Shown here: in pieces, positions 25,658-61,710 of the stretch | How positions within the stretch are numbered: the first letter of the stretch is position 1 | Layout: every line of letters begins with the position of its first letter | Source of the DNA: Candidatus Dormiibacterota bacterium | GTDB lineage: Bacteria > Acidobacteriota > Polarisedimenticolia > Gp22-AA2 | Direction: 5' to 3' | Assembly: GCA_035635555.1 (NCBI GenBank) | Contig: DASQAT010000037.1 | Coordinates: 1 to 64,000, forward strand | DNA length: 64,000 nt | Made by a program: the position numbers and the translations under genes | Notes under the pieces: generated by a model | Seen by the model: only the letters and a program-made list of their open reading frames with translations | Database searches by the model: none | Told to the model about the DNA's origin: nothing

Positions 25658-25748
25658 CGGAGAGGGTGGGATTCGAACCCACGTGGGGCTGATTAGGCCC
25701 CAACCCGCTTTCGAGGCGGGCCCGTTGCGACCACTTCGGTACCTCTCC
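25658..25748 (-). tRNA. tRNA-Ser (anticodon CGA)
   Basis: On the minus strand a 7-bp acceptor stem (GGAGAGG/CCTCTCC), a D arm, the anticodon arm CCCGC-CTCGAAA-GCGGG with anticodon CGA, a long variable arm (GGGGC/GCCCC) and a T arm with GTTCGAATC can be drawn. The long variable arm is typical of serine tRNA. The 3' end is followed by CC, so CCA is not fully encoded. 91 bases. Confidence 0.93.
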
Positions 25749-54055: not shown

Positions 54056-54808
54056 TCATGAAGTCGAACGGGTCCGTTCCGCCAGGTAATCCTGCCACAT
54101 CATCCTCGCCGCCACCGATCGGTAGGGGCGCCAGGCGTCGGCGAGGCGCGCGACGCGCTCCGGCGACGCGCGGCCGCGCAGCCGCTTCACGCTGCGCACC
54201 GCGTGCACCAGCGCGATGTCCCCCGCCGGCCAGATGTCCGGGCGACGCAGCGCCATCAAAAGATAGATATCGGCCGTCCAGGGCCCCACGCCCTTGAGTC
54301 GCGTCAGCGTAAGGGCGACGTCCGCGTCGTCCATGCGCGCGACGGTCTTCAGATTGAGACTCCCGCCGCTCACCGCCTCGGCGACATGAAGGCAGTACGC
54401 CGCCTTCTGCCGGGTCACGCCGAGCAAGCGCAGGCGGGCGGTCCCCATCTCGACGAATCGCTCGGGCGTGAACGGCACCACGCCCCGCGCGAGCCGCCGG
54501 AAGATCGCCCGGGCCGAGGCCAGCGAGACCTGCTGCTCCAGGATGATCCGCACGAGCGTCGCGAAGCCCGGACGCCGCCCCCACAGCGGAGGCGGACCAT
54601 GGGTCTTCAAGATACGCCGGAGATCCCGATCCCGTCCGGCCAGATGGCGCGCCGCCTCCGGAAGGTCGCGCCTGGTCAGCGTCGCGGGTCGCGGGGCGCG
54701 CAGGACGTTCATGCCGAACGACGTGACACCGAGTCCGCGTCCGGCGTACAGGAACTGCGCCTGGTAGCCGTCGAGCTCCTCGAGCCGCTTGAAGGTGACG
54801 TCGGCCAT
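54056..54808 (-). CDS. AlkA-type DNA-3-methyladenine glycosylase with a foreign N-terminus
   Basis: HhH-GPD glycosylase of 250 residues, excising alkylated bases. FATLVRIILEQQVSLASARA, the helix-hairpin-helix LTRLKGVGPWTADIYLLMAL, and the catalytic aspartate in WPAGDIALVHAV are present. The first 38 residues (MADVTFKRLEELDGYQ...LGVTSFGMNVL) do not belong to this family; they look like the start of a cupin protein. GAGGAGG lies just before ATG 54808, so the fused form appears to be the translated one. A junction created by deletion is likely. Confidence 0.85.
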   Translation of the reverse strand: MADVTFKRLEELDGYQAQFLYAGRGLGVTSFGMNVLRAPRPATLTRRDLPEAARHLAGRDRDLRRILKTHGPPPLWGRRPGFATLVRIILEQQVSLASARAIFRRLARGVVPFTPERFVEMGTARLRLLGVTRQKAAYCLHVAEAVSGGSLNLKTVARMDDADVALTLTRLKGVGPWTADIYLLMALRRPDIWPAGDIALVHAVRSVKRLRGRASPERVARLADAWRPYRSVAARMMWQDYLAERTRSTS

Positions 54809-54830
54809 GGTTCCTCCTCGTGACCGCATT

Positions 54831-55715
54831 CTACCCGGATCGACTGCCGGGTCGACCCTCGCGTCCCGCAAGGGTGAGCGCGACTCCTCCGAGGATCAGG
54901 ATCGCCGCCGCAGCCAACCGCGGCGACACGCTCTCTCCCAGGACCATCACGCCCCCTGCCGCGGCCAGCGCCGGCACCGACAGCTGCACCGTGGCGGCGC
55001 GGGACGCGCTCAATCCCTTCAAAGCGGCGTACCAGAGGACGTAGCCGAGACCGGAGGCGACGACCCCCGAGGCCAGGGCCAGGAGGATGCCACCCGGGCT
55101 CGCATGCAGATGACGGGCGGAGAGCAGGCTGACCGTCAGGGCGAAGGGGATCGAGCGGATGAAGTTGCCGGTCGTCTCGGGCAGCGGACCGGCGGGGCCG
55201 CGGCCCCGCAGAGAATAGATCCCCCAGGAGATCCCGCCGACAGTCATGAGCATGGCGCCGCCCGGGGAAGGGGCCCGCAGCCCCGGAAGCACCAGGATCA
55301 CCAGGCCCGCCACCGCAAGCGCGAGGCCGACCCAGTGGCGGGGGCGCGGACGTTCCCCCGACCCGATCGCGGCCAGGAGCATGGTCGCCTGGACCGACCC
55401 GAACAGGATGAGCGCCCCCGTCCCGGCCCCCAGGCTCGTGTAGGCGAACGAGAACGGGATGGCGTAGAGGAAGAGCAGGGCGGCCGATCCCCAGTTTCCA
55501 CCGACCCGGAGCGGCCGGCCGCGCATCCCCAGGGACAGCAGGACCAAGGCGACCGCCCCCGACGCCAGGCGAATGGTCGAGAAGCTCGCCGCGTCGATCT
55601 CCGCGCGGCCGAGGGCCAGCCGGCAGAGCACCGAGTTCGCCGCGAAGGCGACGAGCGCCGACGCCGTGCAGAGGACCGTGGTGCCGGAGGGACCCCCGCC
55701 CCGCGCCGACGTCAC
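54831..55715 (-). CDS. EamA/DMT family transporter
   Basis: A 294-residue permease with ten membrane helices in two EamA repeats (VLCTASALVAFAANSVLCRLAL, then ALTVSLLSARHL... LASGVVASGLGYVLWYAALKGLSASRAATVQLSVPALAAAGGVMVLGE). The GYVLWYAALK segment is a hallmark of the second repeat. GTG start at 55715, ten bases after the thioredoxin-fold gene stop, so it belongs to the same transcript. Substrate unknown. Confidence 0.87.
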   Translation of the reverse strand: MTSARGGGPSGTTVLCTASALVAFAANSVLCRLALGRAEIDAASFSTIRLASGAVALVLLSLGMRGRPLRVGGNWGSAALLFLYAIPFSFAYTSLGAGTGALILFGSVQATMLLAAIGSGERPRPRHWVGLALAVAGLVILVLPGLRAPSPGGAMLMTVGGISWGIYSLRGRGPAGPLPETTGNFIRSIPFALTVSLLSARHLHASPGGILLALASGVVASGLGYVLWYAALKGLSASRAATVQLSVPALAAAGGVMVLGESVSPRLAAAAILILGGVALTLAGREGRPGSRSG

Positions 55716-55725
55716 CGGCCTCGCG

Positions 55726-56481
55726 TCACTTGAGAAGAGAGGCGAGCGCCGTCTCGGCCTCGGTGTGCAGCGTCGGGGGGGCGCCGTAATACGTCGCGAC
55801 GGCGTGCCCCTCGCCGTCGAACAGCAGGAGCGTCGGCACGGCGCTCACGTCGCCGAACGCGCGCACGACCTCGGGTGTGCCGATCGCGAACACGAACGGC
55901 AGCTTGAGCTCGGACACGAGCTTGCGCACGTCCGGCTCCTCGGACTGCACGGAGATCGCCACGACCGCGAGGCGGTCCCCATGGAGCTTCTTGAGATCTC
56001 CGAGCCACGCGAGAGTGCCGCGGCAGGGAGGACACCAGGTGGCCCAGAGCTCGACCGCCACCGGCCGTCCCGCCAGTGTGGACCGGTCCACGGATCTGCC
56101 GTCGAGGTCGGTGATTGTCACGGCCGGCCATTCGGCGATCGCGGCCGCGGGCGCGGGGGCCGCCGCGGCGTGGGCAGCGTCCTTGTCCCCTTCCAGGACC
56201 AGCCGGATCATGCGCGACAGATCGGCCCGGAAGCGTTCGTGGGCCGCAGCGCTCTTGAGCGGCGCGTACCGACCCCCCACCTCGGCCGCCCCCTTGCCGT
56301 AGAAGCCGAAATCGTCGGGTGTGGCCGCCAGGACGTCGTCGACGAAGATCGCCGGGTAGCGCGTGACCCCGAAGCGCTTCGCCAGCTTCGAGTCTCCGTA
56401 GTTCTCCGACACGAACCGCACCTTCCCCCCGAATTCCTGAACCACGCTCTGCGCCAGCAGACCTGCCGGGTCGGAGATGTT
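55726..56481 (-). CDS. C-terminal segment of candidate selenoprotein: thioredoxin fold plus TlpA-like domain
   Basis: This frame directly continues the gene at 56482-57573 after a UGA. It has no plausible own start: the first in-frame candidate is a GTG at 56445 with no ribosome-binding site, inside the first helix of a thioredoxin fold. The first part, from NISDPAGLLAQSVVQEFGG to VTRYPAIFVDD, is a thioredoxin fold lacking its first strand and active site, both of which lie before the UGA. After an Ala/Pro linker comes a TlpA-like domain with WATWCPPCRGTL. Read as one, the protein has 615 residues with selenocysteine at 364. If the UGA is a plain stop, this is an N-terminally truncated fragment. 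Confidence 0.8.
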   Translation of the reverse strand, partial: NISDPAGLLAQSVVQEFGGKVRFVSENYGDSKLAKRFGVTRYPAIFVDDVLAATPDDFGFYGKGAAEVGGRYAPLKSAAAHERFRADLSRMIRLVLEGDKDAAHAAAAPAPAAAIAEWPAVTITDLDGRSVDRSTLAGRPVAVELWATWCPPCRGTLAWLGDLKKLHGDRLAVVAISVQSEEPDVRKLVSELKLPFVFAIGTPEVVRAFGDVSAVPTLLLFDGEGHAVATYYGAPPTLHTEAETALASLLK

Positions 56482-56484
56482 TCA
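56440..56484 (-). other. In-frame UGA with candidate bacterial SECIS hairpin
   Basis: UGA at 56484-56482 is followed after 12 bases by a 6-bp stem (56469-56464 with 56459-56454; one G-U pair) and a four-base loop GGUC. The loop begins 18 bases after the UGA and has G in its first two positions. Both fit the published description of bacterial selenocysteine insertion elements (loop 16-37 bases from the UGA, G among the first two loop bases). A CUC/GAG pairing can extend the stem below an internal loop. Structure drawn by eye, not energy-calculated. Confidence 0.6.
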
Positions 56485-57573
56485 GGTGTACGGCCAGCGG
56501 ACGAGCGTGACCGTGGCGCGCGGTGCTGCCTTCGGCGCCTCCGGGATCGCCGGCTCGAGCGCCGCGAAGTAGCGCGGCAGCACGTCCGCGACGATCGCCG
56601 CGGCGATCGCGGGATCGCCCGCCGGCGCCGGGTCCGACAGGTTGGCCTGGGCCGACTCGAGGAAGATCCTGCCCAGGCTGTGATCGGTGCCGCCCTCGGA
56701 CAGACGGGCGTCGAGCTCGCGGAGTCGCGCGGCGATCGTCCCGGTGTCGAGGGCCGGCTGCGCCTGGCGCAGCGGTGCGAATCGCAGGGCGGCCTCCAGG
56801 TAGCGCAGCAGGGCGCCGTGTCGCAGTCCCGCGGCGTCCAGCTCTCGTGCCTCGTTCAGGGTGGAGTTGGCGACGATGAACTCGCGGTGCCTGTCGATCG
56901 ACACCGGCGGCCTGTAGACGGCGAGGAGATCGCGCTGCAGGGCGTCGATCTCCCCCTGCAGCGCGCGCAGCCTCGGCGCCGCGCCGGCCGTCGGCGCGGC
57001 GAGGGAGCGGCAGAAGGCCGCGAACTCCTTCTGCGCCTGCGCCGACGCCAGGTAGAAGAAACCGAAGTCCGGCATGGTGTTGCGCCCGTACTCGAGACTC
57101 GACTCGTAGAAGGCGCGCACCTGGGGAAGGGCCGCCTCGGCCACGGCCCGCACGGCCGCGGGGCGCAGGCCGTCCAGAGCACCGGCCGAGGGACCGCGCA
57201 GGTCGGCCTTCAGCGCCTTCCCGAGGCGCGCCCACTCCGCCTCGAAGCCGGCGTCGTCCTTGCGCTCCCGGGGCGACCGTCGTTCCAGGGACTCCGAAGC
57301 GGCCAGATTCACGCGCACGGCGGCCAGACGCTGCAGCGCCAGCCAGCGACGGCCGTCGTGGAGCGCCTTGTCGGCGCGCTCGAGGATCGGCGCGCTGGCC
57401 TCCTTCACCTGGACCCAGAGCTCGTCCGTGGACGTGTTGTTCTTCAGAAAGACGGACCAGCGCGCGATCTCGGCTGCGAGCGGGTCGGCGGTTGCGGCGC
57501 CCGCCCGGGGATGCGCCAGCGCCAAGGCGACCAGGAGGGCGCACACTCCTGAGGAAACGGCTCGAATGTTCAT
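56482..57573 (-). CDS. N-terminal segment of candidate selenoprotein: exported helical domain
   Basis: 363 codons from ATG 57573 to a UGA. A signal peptide (ending GAATA) is followed by a long helical domain (about residues 28-335: WLALQRLAAVRVNLAASESLERR, FGFFYLASAQAQKEFAAFCRSL, ALLRYLEAALRFAPLRQ). The last 25 residues are a Pro/Ala linker and then ATVTLVRWPYT, which is exactly the first strand of a thioredoxin fold leading into the active site. The UGA then stands where the first active-site cysteine would be, and the fold continues in frame. I did not identify the helical domain. It is exported, so the thioredoxin parts would work in the periplasm. Confidence 0.8.
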   Translation of the reverse strand: MNIRAVSSGVCALLVALALAHPRAGAATADPLAAEIARWSVFLKNNTSTDELWVQVKEASAPILERADKALHDGRRWLALQRLAAVRVNLAASESLERRSPRERKDDAGFEAEWARLGKALKADLRGPSAGALDGLRPAAVRAVAEAALPQVRAFYESSLEYGRNTMPDFGFFYLASAQAQKEFAAFCRSLAAPTAGAAPRLRALQGEIDALQRDLLAVYRPPVSIDRHREFIVANSTLNEARELDAAGLRHGALLRYLEAALRFAPLRQAQPALDTGTIAARLRELDARLSEGGTDHSLGRIFLESAQANLSDPAPAGDPAIAAAIVADVLPRYFAALEPAIPEAPKAAPRATVTLVRWPYT

Positions 57574-57641: not shown

Positions 57642-58940
57642 TTATGATAGCCCAAGAACCGAGTCCGGGATGCGGAGGCCCTGCTTGAAGCGCATCCGGA
57701 TGTCCTTCACCTTCTCGAAATCGGCCAGCGGGTCGCCTCCCAGGACCAGGAAGCTCGCCTCGTATCCTTCCTGGAGATGCCCGATCTTCCGCTTCGGGAA
57801 GATCGTCCCGGCGGTCGTCTCGCACCAAGCCTTGAGGAGGGCGCGGTTGTCGAGGACGTTCAGGGTGTGCACGTTCAGCGCTTCGGCGAGGGCGGTGACG
57901 CCGTAAACGTCGGGGCCGAGCGCGATCTTGACGCCCGCGTCGCGCAGCAGCCCCAGATTCCCCGCCTGGATCTGCCTCGCCGTCTTCAGCTGCGCGGCCT
58001 CCTCGGGCCTGGCCATCTCCGCCGCGGCCACGTAGGTCGTCGTGACCACGACGACGCCCTGGCGCGCGGCAAGCGCCGCGTCCTGCGCCGTGATCGGGAA
58101 CCACTCCTGGTGCTCGGGTGTCGGGAAGTAGCCGGGCATGTGGTTGATCTCGTCCACCCCCGCCGCCAGCGCGTTGCGGAAATCGACCGCCGTCTCGATG
58201 TGGCAGGACACGCGCAGGTGATCGGCGTGCGCCCGATCGACGATCGAGCGCAGGACCTTCGGGTCGAGTCCCCGGTGGCCGTAGTAGGCCGGGTCGTTCC
58301 GCCTCGTCTCGAACTCCTCGGAATAGAGCAGGTGACCCTTGATGAAATCGGGAGCGCCGGCCATGATCATCGGCCACTTCTTCTCCAGATCCGCGTCGTT
58401 GTCGATGATGACGTATCCGAGATTTTCGAACGTCCCGTCGGGCCCCGGGGTCTTCACCTTCCTGAGGTACTCCTCGTACAGCCTGACGGGATGCCCCCCC
58501 GCGGCGGTGATTCCCGCGTTCGCGAACACCACGTCGACGCCGTCCGGCCGGTTGATCTTGTCCTTGATCTTGCCGGTGTCGCGCGCGATGCTGGCGGGGT
58601 TCTTGGCATAGAAGATCCCGTCCCGAAGGTACTGCCGGAGGATGTTGTCGATGTCGTGCGGGCCGGCGATGTAGTGGTTGTGCGCGTCGCCGAACGGCGG
58701 CACGACGTAGCCGTCCTTCAAATCGACCACCTCGTCGACAGCCGCCGGCGCCTTGACGGTCAGCACGCCTCCGGCGGCGTAGAAGACCCGGCGCCTGAAC
58801 ACCGTCCCGTCGAACCATCTCCCGTTGACGAGCTTGCAGACCTTGTCCTTGACGGGGGAGGGGAGGGCTTGCGGCTGCGGCGCCTCCCCGCGCGAGGCGG
58901 TGAGGACCAGGGCCAGCGTCAGGCCGGCTGCGGAAAGCAT
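57642..58940 (-). CDS. Exported amidohydrolase-family protein
   Basis: A 432-residue metal-dependent hydrolase with a signal peptide (ending SRGEA). Metal-ligand motifs are DAHNHYIAG (HxH), GHRGLDP, VSCHIETAVDF, EINHMPGY and LGPDVYG; the composite-domain end ASFLVLGGDPLADF is typical of the imidazolonepropionase/prolidase-like group. ATG 58940 starts on the signal peptide. Lies 68 bases upstream of the candidate selenoprotein gene on the same strand. Substrate unknown. Confidence 0.85.
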   Translation of the reverse strand: MLSAAGLTLALVLTASRGEAPQPQALPSPVKDKVCKLVNGRWFDGTVFRRRVFYAAGGVLTVKAPAAVDEVVDLKDGYVVPPFGDAHNHYIAGPHDIDNILRQYLRDGIFYAKNPASIARDTGKIKDKINRPDGVDVVFANAGITAAGGHPVRLYEEYLRKVKTPGPDGTFENLGYVIIDNDADLEKKWPMIMAGAPDFIKGHLLYSEEFETRRNDPAYYGHRGLDPKVLRSIVDRAHADHLRVSCHIETAVDFRNALAAGVDEINHMPGYFPTPEHQEWFPITAQDAALAARQGVVVVTTTYVAAAEMARPEEAAQLKTARQIQAGNLGLLRDAGVKIALGPDVYGVTALAEALNVHTLNVLDNRALLKAWCETTAGTIFPKRKIGHLQEGYEASFLVLGGDPLADFEKVKDIRMRFKQGLRIPDSVLGLS

Positions 58941-58983
58941 CCGTGCGCTCCCGGCCTGATCCCGCCGATGATCCCGGCGGTCT

Positions 58984-61710
58984 TCAAGGGCAGGCCAGAA
59001 TCGAGGTGTCCTGCTGGCTCGTGCCGTAGGTGCCGGCCCCGCACGAGTTCTCTCCGCGCGCCAGGTACCAGTACGCCTGGCCAACCGGGGGAGCCGGCCG
59101 GGTATCGGGGAACGAGGTGCCTCCGCCCTCCAGCGCGCAGGCGGCGGAGGAGAAGTTCACGGACCCACTGGACAGGATCTCCCCCGAGACCAGGTCGTAC
59201 ACGGTCTCGGGACCGACCAGGACGCCCTGGCTGTCCCACGCCAGGCCGGTCGGATCGGCTCCCGCCACAGATAGATTGGTCACTGCCACGGGCGCGCTCC
59301 AGACGAAGGGATTGTTGTCGTTGCAGTCGTCCCCACCGCACAGGGAGCCGCGGTGTCCGTCGCCGTCCGCGTCCAGGACACCACCGCCGCTGCAGACGCC
59401 CGCCTGGCAGGTGTCGGCCTGCGTGCACGGATTGCCGTCGTTGCAGGCCGAGCCGTCGCCGATCACCGCGGCCGTAGTGACCGAGGCGTCCGAGGTGCAT
59501 CCGCCCAGCGTGACGCTCACCCTGTACGTTCCCGAGGCGGCGGTCGTGGCGCCCGGGATCGAAGGATTCTGCGCGCTCGAAGCGAAGCCGTTCGGACCGG
59601 TCCAGCTGTAGGTGGCGCCGGCCACAGTCCCGGCCGACAGCTGCAGGGTCGCGCCGGCGCAGATCGGGCCGTTGTTCGACGCGGCCGGGGAGGAGGCGCC
59701 GTTGACCGTCAAGAGCCCGACCCCGGTCGACGACTGCCCGTCGGGGTTGGTCAGGGTGATGTCATGGACGCCCGGCGCGGCTCCGACGGTCGACAGGCTC
59801 AGGGCGACATGAGTGGGATCCGCGAACGTGACGCCGTTGACCCCGACACCACCGCTCACCGTGGCCGAAAGATGGTTGGGGTAGCCCGGACCGCCCGCGT
59901 CGGCCCCAGGGTCGAAGAACTCCGAGCCGGCCGATGACGCACCGGCGATGGTGACGTCGACCGTCGCCTGACCTGCGCAGATGCTCGAGGGGACCGCGCC
60001 GGTGGGCGACGCCGGCGGCGGCGCCTTGAGCTGCACGACCTGGACCCCCCACGAATTGGTCGCGTCGCACCACTCCTGGAACGTCCAGAGCGTCATGTCA
60101 TCGGTGGGATCGACGACGGTGTGCGAATAGTCGCCCCAGCGCTGGCCGTCCACGCTTTGCTGGTTGTAGGCGCTCGCGGAGATCTGCGCCAGGGATGGGA
60201 CCTTGATCGTGCCCAGGGCGTCGGTCCGCAAGCGGCCGGCGGTCGCGACGCCCGCGAAATCATTCGTGCTCGCGTAGCTGGAACCGAGGGCCATGTGCCC
60301 CTGACCGCTCGCCGCCACCGTGTCGATCCAGAAGCCGCGCGGGTTGGTGGACACCGTGTCGAAGAGCGTGCCGGCCTGGTTGAGCGACGGCGTCCCGCCC
60401 AGGTTCGTGAACTCGTACCAGCGCGAACCGTTGCGGGTGCCGTGCGTGGACACGACCCCGCTGGAATTCACTTCGAAGTTGTGCGCGGTCCAGAGGCTCG
60501 TCGCGCCGGTGATCTTGTTCTTGTGGATCGATGCCGCGAACAGACGATCGTCCAGCGCGTCGAGCCTGCGGTTGCTGGCCGATCCCTTGACGGCCTGCGG
60601 GATCGGGAGGGTCGTCGCCGGGACGGTGAGGACGATGTTGCCGGAGATCGACGGGGTACCCCCCGGATTGCTCACGCGCAGGATGTCGATCTGGCTGAAG
60701 AGAATCGTGTCGACTCCGATGAAGAACCCCTGGGTGGCGGCGGGATCGTCGTTGTCGACGCCGCGCGGGGACCAGGGCCCCGCTATGGCCGCGGATGCGA
60801 TCCGGCGGAATGCCGTGACCGTCAGCGTCCCGGCCAGGAGCCCCGCCTTGTTGATCACGTAGCCGGTCGATCCCAGGTAGACCGTCCCCGCCGCATTGAA
60901 GACGTTCACGCCGATGTAAAGGGCGGACCGATCCACGCCGAGGCTGTCGTAGTCGGCGAACCCCCCCGTATCGTTGTTGGGAGTCGTCCCGACGAGATCG
61001 TGCTGGAACGCGAAGAACGTAAAGCTGGAGGACGAGGAGATCGTCGGGCCGGAGCTGACGGCGATCAGGATCTTGTTTGGAGTCGTGGTAGTCAATTCGG
61101 TGACGAACCAGCGCCCCGAGAGCCTGTCGTAGCGCACCTGGGGGTCCGTGATGTCGGACCCGCCGGTCACTGAAGCGAAGAAGACGCCATCGGTCACGTT
61201 GAGCCCGCCGAGGCTCCCGGTCTTGTCGAACACCTTGATCCGGCCGTTGGCCATCGCCAGGATCTGGGTCGGACCGACATCCCCGACGCTGTCCGGGGGG
61301 ATGAACATGGATTCGTTCGGGGAGTTCAGTGAGATCGCCTTGAAGTTGGTCCCGACGACCTGGGGCGCGAGCGGCGTCACGGCCTCCGACGTGAGGGGCT
61401 GGGTCTGGCTCGGGGGCGGCCATTGCGACACGGGGGGCGCCGCCGGGTTCTCCCTGATCGGCCCCGGCCGGCCTTCCGGCTCCTCCCTCAGACGGGGGAA
61501 GGCCCGGATCTTCGGGGCCCTGGCCTCGCGCTCCATGAGATCAGCGACTGATTCCCGGACCCCCCGTCCCCCCGTCCAGGGGACCCCCACTGTTTCGCCC
61601 GGTTCGACCCTTGCGCGTCCCACGGACTCGTCCTGGGCCGGGGACGACCCCAGCGCGACCGATGCGACGAGGATTCCGCTCAGGACGGACCTATGACGGG
61701 GGGAAGGCAT
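58984..61710 (-). CDS. Large secreted multidomain protein with MopE-type segment
   Basis: A 908-residue exported protein (signal peptide ending SPAQD). Residues about 120-600 form an unrecognised domain with propeller-like strands (GDVGPTQILAMANGRIKVFDKTG, DPQVRYDRLSGRWFVTELT). Ig/PKD-like domains with paired cysteines follow (about 605-745), then a CNDGNPCTQADTC EGF-like stretch, DADGDGHRGSLCGGDDCNDN near residue 775, and a C-terminal FN3-like end (PPVGQAYWYLARGENSCGAGTYGTS). The end resembles that of the Kelch-like protein at 1840. Function unknown. Confidence 0.83.
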   Translation of the reverse strand: MPSPRHRSVLSGILVASVALGSSPAQDESVGRARVEPGETVGVPWTGGRGVRESVADLMEREARAPKIRAFPRLREEPEGRPGPIRENPAAPPVSQWPPPSQTQPLTSEAVTPLAPQVVGTNFKAISLNSPNESMFIPPDSVGDVGPTQILAMANGRIKVFDKTGSLGGLNVTDGVFFASVTGGSDITDPQVRYDRLSGRWFVTELTTTTPNKILIAVSSGPTISSSSSFTFFAFQHDLVGTTPNNDTGGFADYDSLGVDRSALYIGVNVFNAAGTVYLGSTGYVINKAGLLAGTLTVTAFRRIASAAIAGPWSPRGVDNDDPAATQGFFIGVDTILFSQIDILRVSNPGGTPSISGNIVLTVPATTLPIPQAVKGSASNRRLDALDDRLFAASIHKNKITGATSLWTAHNFEVNSSGVVSTHGTRNGSRWYEFTNLGGTPSLNQAGTLFDTVSTNPRGFWIDTVAASGQGHMALGSSYASTNDFAGVATAGRLRTDALGTIKVPSLAQISASAYNQQSVDGQRWGDYSHTVVDPTDDMTLWTFQEWCDATNSWGVQVVQLKAPPPASPTGAVPSSICAGQATVDVTIAGASSAGSEFFDPGADAGGPGYPNHLSATVSGGVGVNGVTFADPTHVALSLSTVGAAPGVHDITLTNPDGQSSTGVGLLTVNGASSPAASNNGPICAGATLQLSAGTVAGATYSWTGPNGFASSAQNPSIPGATTAASGTYRVSVTLGGCTSDASVTTAAVIGDGSACNDGNPCTQADTCQAGVCSGGGVLDADGDGHRGSLCGGDDCNDNNPFVWSAPVAVTNLSVAGADPTGLAWDSQGVLVGPETVYDLVSGEILSSGSVNFSSAACALEGGGTSFPDTRPAPPVGQAYWYLARGENSCGAGTYGTSQQDTSILACP

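Follow-up and report, generated by a model that had tools for sequence, protein, structure and literature searches.

A very probable selenoprotein of Acidobacteriota with a lone selenocysteine in a predicted thioredoxin-fold domain

A gene on the minus strand of the 64,000-nucleotide stretch of DNA analysed here (the window) raises the question of whether an in-frame UGA ends a protein or encodes selenocysteine (Sec). The gene starts with ATG at 57573 and runs for 363 codons to the residues TLVRWPYT, where it meets the UGA; the same frame then continues for 251 more codons to a terminal UGA at 55726–55728. Without that terminal stop, the coding frame (55729–57573, minus) comprises 615 codons, the single in-frame UGA being residue 364 (Table 1). 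An ordinary ORF listing splits the gene into ORFs of 363 and 239 amino acids. Sequence comparison makes it very likely (probability about 0.95, a figure that covers Sec decoding only) that this is a genuine, functional selenoprotein gene with Sec at codon 364; there is no experimental proof of Sec.

The neighbouring genes, all on the minus strand, appear by eye, without a family search, to encode an amidohydrolase (57642–59084), an EamA-type transporter (54831–55715) and a DNA glycosylase (54056–54871), and lie outside any gene set conserved at other loci. Across 34 loci and the window, no conserved neighbour genes were found beyond the gene's own parts, except in small groups of close relatives, nor was any conserved substrate or redox partner gene found nearby.

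Table 1. Features of the putative selenoprotein gene in the window
Feature	Positions	Strand	Residues	Remarks
Whole selenoprotein gene	55726..57573	minus		615 codons, one of them for Sec, and the terminal UGA; aligned to 34 loci
Signal peptide, approximate	57496..57573	minus	1–26	MNIRAVSSGVCALLVALALAHPRAGA; homologues have similar leaders; helix 7–19 in the model
Helical domain	56560..57483	minus	31–338	No match in Pfam; invariably accompanies the Sec domain
Divergent thioredoxin-fold domain with Sec (predicted)	56188..56523	minus	351–462	Profile, model and fold matches
Sec-encoding UGA (very likely)	56482..56484	minus	364	N-terminal Cys position of CxxC; U-N-I-S
Bacterial SECIS-type hairpin	56454..56469	minus		CCGGCA-GGUC-UGCUGG; loop at 56460–56463
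TlpA/ResA-like thioredoxin domain, C-terminal	55729..56148	minus	476–615	Sequence and fold matches
CPPC active site of TlpA-like domain	56023..56034	minus	514–517	Cys514 and Cys517 invariant in 35 members

Conservation of the UGA and its reading frame

Counting the window, 48 distinct loci (47 further) in Acidobacteriota, Planctomycetota and Armatimonadota emerged from searches that covered 60 near genomes, a set of 84,980 species genomes (queried with a pattern and with tblastn), 396 genomes from the host phylum, and 251 and 392 genomes from the phyla of two further loci (L081 and L084, respectively). A plasmid search returned, in the rows listed, matches to the TlpA region only. The aligned Sec position is TGA in 46 of the 48 loci and TGC (Cys) in the other two (L081 and L108), and the 46 TGA codons share the motif RWP[YF]T-U-xxSDPA. 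Protein identity of the relatives to the window copy is 33–66%. Recurrence of the same UGA, its context and the hairpin behind it at 45 further loci places the pattern far above chance.

Comparison of these sequences shows the Sec codon and the conserved residues around it. In an alignment of 35 members, R359, W360, P361, T363, D368, P369, A370, L372 and L373 are invariant, the residues straight after the UGA being conserved as strongly as those before it, and positions 364, 514 and 517 are the only ones occupied by Cys or Sec in every member. Nearly all members have U-x-x-S, with U-x-x-C in L077; the Sec domain does not meet the CxxC/UxxC criterion, which includes a resolving Cys. Of the two Cys homologues, L081, from an Armatimonadetes MAG, is full length and has all three domains (RWPYTCSLSDPAS), and L108 is a paralogue sharing its contig with a Sec copy. 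Two criteria for a bacterial selenoprotein, a UGA with a conserved frame on either side and homologues with Cys at the Sec position (L081, L108), are thus met.

In a tree of 44 members, forms in which the Sec part is a separate gene are scattered over several positions, and L081, with Cys, has a long branch of 1.86 changes per site next to some of these forms (support 97/81), which leaves the direction of Sec/Cys change unsettled. Four loci labelled Planctomycetota (L052, L059, L062 and L067) fall inside Acidobacteriota clades of this gene tree; gene transfer and mislabelled MAGs are both possible causes. The gene is patchy among close relatives, being missing from three genomes of the same genus (G002, G003, G004) and two of the same family (G005, G007), some of them incomplete; a SelB match was obtained in all of these except G007.

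The hairpin behind the UGA and the decoding machinery

The window sequence following the UGA, AACATCTCCGACCCGGCAGGTCTGCTGG, contains a 6-bp hairpin with a GGUC loop that spans +13 to +28 after the UGA, with 18 nt from UGA to loop and −7.9 kcal/mol (RNA fold). The bacterial SECIS model specifies an apical loop of 3–9 nt with a G within its first two positions, a stem of 4–16 bp, a loop 16–37 nt after the UGA and an MFE of at most −7.5 (PMC13188914), and the window hairpin, by its 4-nt loop, 6 bp, 18-nt spacing and energy, meets it. Shuffled sequences fold with similar energy (z −0.23) and the stem is short, so the SECIS case rests on conservation. A scan of the UGA region against Rfam gave no match at any threshold, which neither supports nor refutes a SECIS element, and nothing was found on SelB–loop structure in the literature searched.

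Comparison shows the hairpin to be kept 13–28 nt past the UGA in 46 of 46 TGA loci, with a GGUC or AGUU loop and with 6/6 stem pairs in 43 of them and 5/6 in the other three. The TGC loci retain 4 and 3 pairs without the loop pattern, so that the hairpin is lost in both. Among 44 TGA loci read to 60 nt, a set that includes one duplicate (L058 = L012), no variation occurs at positions +13, +14, +16 to +18, +20, +21 and +23 to +27. The loop-closing pair, formed by the outermost loop bases, covaries (of 43 rows, 25 have A-U, 18 have G-C and none has a mismatch), and 99.0% of cells are paired as drawn, versus 4–50% with the hairpin slid. Whereas the loop change at +19 swaps Gly and Ser, that at +22 (CTG/TTG) leaves the amino acid unaltered and hence is not demanded by the protein sequence alone; the G-C/A-U change follows clades and may therefore represent one or a few events.

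Synonymous conservation, gauged against the codon use of each gene itself, is highest among 564 columns at codons +3, +6, +7 and +9 (z 11.5 to 13.6; next 9.5), and Ala+6 is GCA and Leu+9 is CTG in 34/34. The Ser codon at +3 (56473–56475, minus), TCC in 28/34 and unusually conserved synonymously, lies outside the hairpin stem.

The host genome (4.28 Mb, 99% complete) encodes SelA (451 bits), SelB (334 bits) and SelD (366 bits; L047, G000:C46:119634-120566), each over cut-off, and a tRNA-Sec (75.9 bits; ARAGORN tRNA-SeC, anticodon TCA (UCA)). With all four present, Sec decoding is expected to be active in the host. SelB exceeds its cut-off in 15 of 15 carriers in the phylum sample, versus 253 of all 396 genomes sampled there (P about 0.001, ignoring kinship, as related genomes are not independent), and is present in 12/12 individually tested genomes, including ones labelled Planctomycetota and Armatimonadetes, one of the 12 being shared with the 15. 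The host SelD has its own in-frame TGA (GGUAAK) and is itself a predicted selenoprotein. A tRNA-Ser (CGA) at 25658–25748 (minus) exceeds the Rfam tRNA-Sec cut-off (50.4 bits) and is not the Sec tRNA.

A preliminary description made from sequence alone had proposed a 363-codon gene ending RWPYT-UGA in a frame that continues, a UGA at the first Cys of a CxxC (U-N-I-S), a 6-bp GGUC hairpin with its loop 18 bases from the UGA, and a gene that ordinary callers would split. All of these held, the UGA position in both the sequence and the aligned relatives; the strand, which it left unstated, is minus. It had also named outcomes that would refute it. A lack of Sec machinery is ruled out by the four components found; homologues ending or starting at the UGA are absent, split members breaking upstream; and TGC or TGT misread as TGA is excluded, since TGA at 46 of 48 loci means that the window TGA is not a read error. 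Homologues with U or Cys at residue 364, which it proposed to seek, are the 46 TGA loci and the two Cys loci.

Domain structure and split forms

The domain order follows from sequence comparison. An AlphaFold2 model built from 35 sequences (mean pLDDT 86.7, pTM 0.82) places helices over residues 31–338, then a strand (353–359), Sec364, a helix (367–379) and strands at 385–391, 408–411 and 414–417, followed by a TlpA-type domain to residue 615. Invariant P407 precedes strand 408–411, and the thioredoxin-fold criterion, a strand–helix unit plus a Pro at the cis-Pro position, is met. W360, four residues before the first Cys, is what we take to be the equivalent of E. coli thioredoxin W28. Because matches to the TlpA domain dominated fold searches with the entire protein, the Sec domain was modelled separately (pLDDT 83.6); it matched mostly thioredoxins (Foldseek best E 4e-3, probability about 1; Z to 8.7 over 83 residues), and its sequence profile placed thioredoxins first among PDB chains (E 0.02). 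This match is modest, and the Sec domain is predicted by the model as a likely divergent thioredoxin fold. A Pfam scan of the Sec domain gave no rhodanese, arsenate reductase or peroxiredoxin match.

The C-terminal part meets the TlpA/ResA criterion (WCxxC with a Redoxin/AhpC-TSA profile) through its WCPPC and a Redoxin match at residues 482–609 (E 1.3e-14, 54.7 bits, cut-off 26.6). It is present in 35/35 aligned members and matches ResA and DsbE structures with Foldseek E to 1e-7 and Z to 18.6. The helical domain gave no Pfam match in the 35 members and no meaningful PDB sequence match. It was detected in 10 of 247 sampled genomes, all ten being carriers with the match at the Sec locus, and either precedes the Sec domain, as a fusion or as a gene directly upstream, or, in L107, follows the TlpA domain. 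Since it is always found with the Sec domain (or its Cys form in L108), the two domains appear functionally linked.

Two unusual arrangements share a contig (G1037:C131, minus). In one (L107, L109), a Sec copy is read in one frame with the swapped order leader, Sec-thioredoxin, TlpA and helical domain. In the other (L108, also L109; 4362–6410), an ECF-type sigma factor with Sigma70_r2 and r4 is followed by a hydrophobic segment, a Cys thioredoxin domain (RWPFLCRLSDPAS) and, at 82 bits, the helical domain. No TlpA match was obtained in this fusion, which is possibly a membrane redox-signalling sigma factor.

In seven loci (L016, L017, L075, L080, L082, L098 and L101) a separate gene encodes the Sec part, beginning about 38–54 codons ahead of the UGA with a leader peptide, and the helical domain is encoded just upstream in 7/7. 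The break lies upstream of the UGA, never at it, and, given these starts, a stop at the UGA would reduce the split genes to little beyond a leader and one strand. Across loci, the first in-frame ATG or GTG after the UGA comes at codon 10–50; in the window gene it is a GTG, codon 377, within predicted helix 367–379.

The remaining claims of the preliminary description concern this architecture. A strand before the UGA and a helix after it held in the model, as did a first downstream start inside that helix, and a TlpA-like WCPPC domain held through the Redoxin match. A 615-residue selenoprotein of helical, Sec-thioredoxin and TlpA-like domains is supported, with Sec incorporation and export inferred. 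Three points go beyond it: the family consists almost entirely of Sec members, a helical domain is their constant partner, and conservation of the hairpin extends to synonymous sites.

Proposed mechanism, rival explanations and known systems

In the mechanism we propose, SelB with Sec-tRNA would decode the UGA at codon 364 owing to the hairpin immediately behind it, and the product would be one 615-residue chain of signal peptide, helical domain, Sec-thioredoxin domain and TlpA/ResA-like WCPPC domain, its export being inferred. Sec364 would stand alone at the start of the Sec domain's first helix, in U-x-x-S without a resolving Cys. In the periplasm it may act as a nucleophile on an oxidised substrate held by the helical domain, to give a selenenyl-sulfide or, with a peroxide-type substrate, a selenenic acid. 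With Ser at +3, Sec364 cannot resolve itself, so the attached Cys514/Cys517 most likely do so, and would re-reduce it within the chain. Electrons for that Cys pair would come from a DsbD/CcdA-type thiol transporter in the membrane; ResA, TlpA and DsbE proteins are exported and reduced via CcdA/DsbD-type membrane proteins.

The electron path is inferred. A cis relay, with the TlpA domain reducing Sec in the same chain, rests on the lack of other conserved Cys, without domain-distance data, and could as readily prove wrong as right. The substrate class (disulfide, oxidised thiol or peroxide), likewise a matter of inference, is left undetermined, and the sigma-factor relative keeps a signalling role possible. 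A bolder reading, on which we lean neither way, is an unlisted, nearly obligate Sec family comprising a monoselenol thioredoxin reduced in cis by TlpA, a dedicated helical domain for substrate or signal, and a Cys offshoot connected to an ECF sigma factor.

Among the alternatives, the same selenoprotein could possibly be a periplasmic peroxidase or a metalloid/thiol-adduct reductase recycled by the TlpA domain. A lone Sec without a resolving Cys resembles glutathione-peroxidase-like chemistry; against this, the Sec domain has no peroxidase family match. It is unlikely that the protein is a redox sensor or signaller, not a bulk reductant, in which Sec meets an oxidant and the helical domain relays the change. 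The Cys relative in G1037, behind an ECF-type sigma factor with the helical domain kept and no TlpA match, favours this, but the fusion is a single paralogue, the Sec genes have no conserved regulator next to them, and 35/35 aligned members have a TlpA domain resembling a recycling partner.

Alternatives to Sec decoding itself fare worse. That the UGA is a true stop, with two genes or a nearby restart giving a helical protein and a separate TlpA protein, is suggested by the two ORFs of the ordinary listing, but is very improbable: residues after the UGA are equally conserved, an SD-like 4-mer precedes the first ATG or GTG in only 2/44 loci, the seven split loci break upstream, and two homologues have Cys and no stop. 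Suppression, with the UGA read through as Trp or Cys, has comparably little in its favour. A near-cognate Trp tRNA can read through UGA, but every component of the Sec machinery is present in the genome, the hairpin conforms to the bacterial SECIS model (PMC13188914), and both non-TGA homologues have Cys, none Trp. Trp read-through and the two-gene reading were rejected on these respective grounds. A pseudogene or sequencing error, that is, a nonsense change in a formerly intact Cys gene, is all but excluded: a lone in-frame TGA can always be an error, but the comparison across 48 loci refutes it, TGA recurring in 46 of them, in separate genomes and at 33–66% identity to the window copy, with the hairpin retained.

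The selenoprotein reading adds a family from bacteria of soil and sediment; Acidobacteriota and Planctomycetota, where it occurs, are common in soils and groundwater. Its motif, RWPYTUxxSDPA, is in none of the 119 prokaryotic selenoprotein families and subfamilies catalogued in 2026 (PMC13188914, Table 1). No NCBIfam release 20.0 model scored above cut-off for the whole protein or for 23 Sec domains, and Pfam recognised only the TlpA part of the family. Literature searches for the motif string, and for selenoprotein with TlpA or with Acidobacteriota, returned nothing relevant; GenBank protein annotation and most subscription papers were outside their scope. The family is thus absent from the selenoprotein catalogues consulted, and an unlisted annotation elsewhere remains possible. 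The authors of deep-Sep state that selenoproteins without Cys homologues may be filtered out (PMC12013277), and with only 2 Cys homologues in 48 loci, the usual search for many Cys/TGA pairs would tend to miss this family. Gene callers would truncate it at the UGA, leaving little but the leader peptide of the split forms. The fixed three-domain set makes the recycling of a lone Sec outside the cytoplasm directly testable.

The C-terminal domain is like the TlpA, ResA and DsbE (CcmG) oxidoreductases in sequence, fold and WCPPC; unlike in those proteins, it is one of three parts and itself lacks Sec. The WAxxUGC selenoproteins (NF041054) are, like the present protein, TlpA/ResA-like, but judged by name their Sec lies in the ResA-like motif, whereas here it lies in a separate, preceding domain; NF041054 scored 29 bits against the window protein (cut-off 300), over the TlpA part only. 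Catalogued UxxS entries (rhodanese form 1, arsenate reductase and peroxiredoxin-like; PMC13188914) share U-x-x-S with the present family, but Pfam finds none of those domains in its Sec domain. With the catalogued thioredoxin-fold selenoproteins (PMC13188914) the family shares Sec in place of the N-terminal active-site Cys, a hairpin SECIS behind the UGA and a redox fold; most of those entries are UxxC or CxxU, whereas the present family carries U-x-x-S without a resolving Cys.
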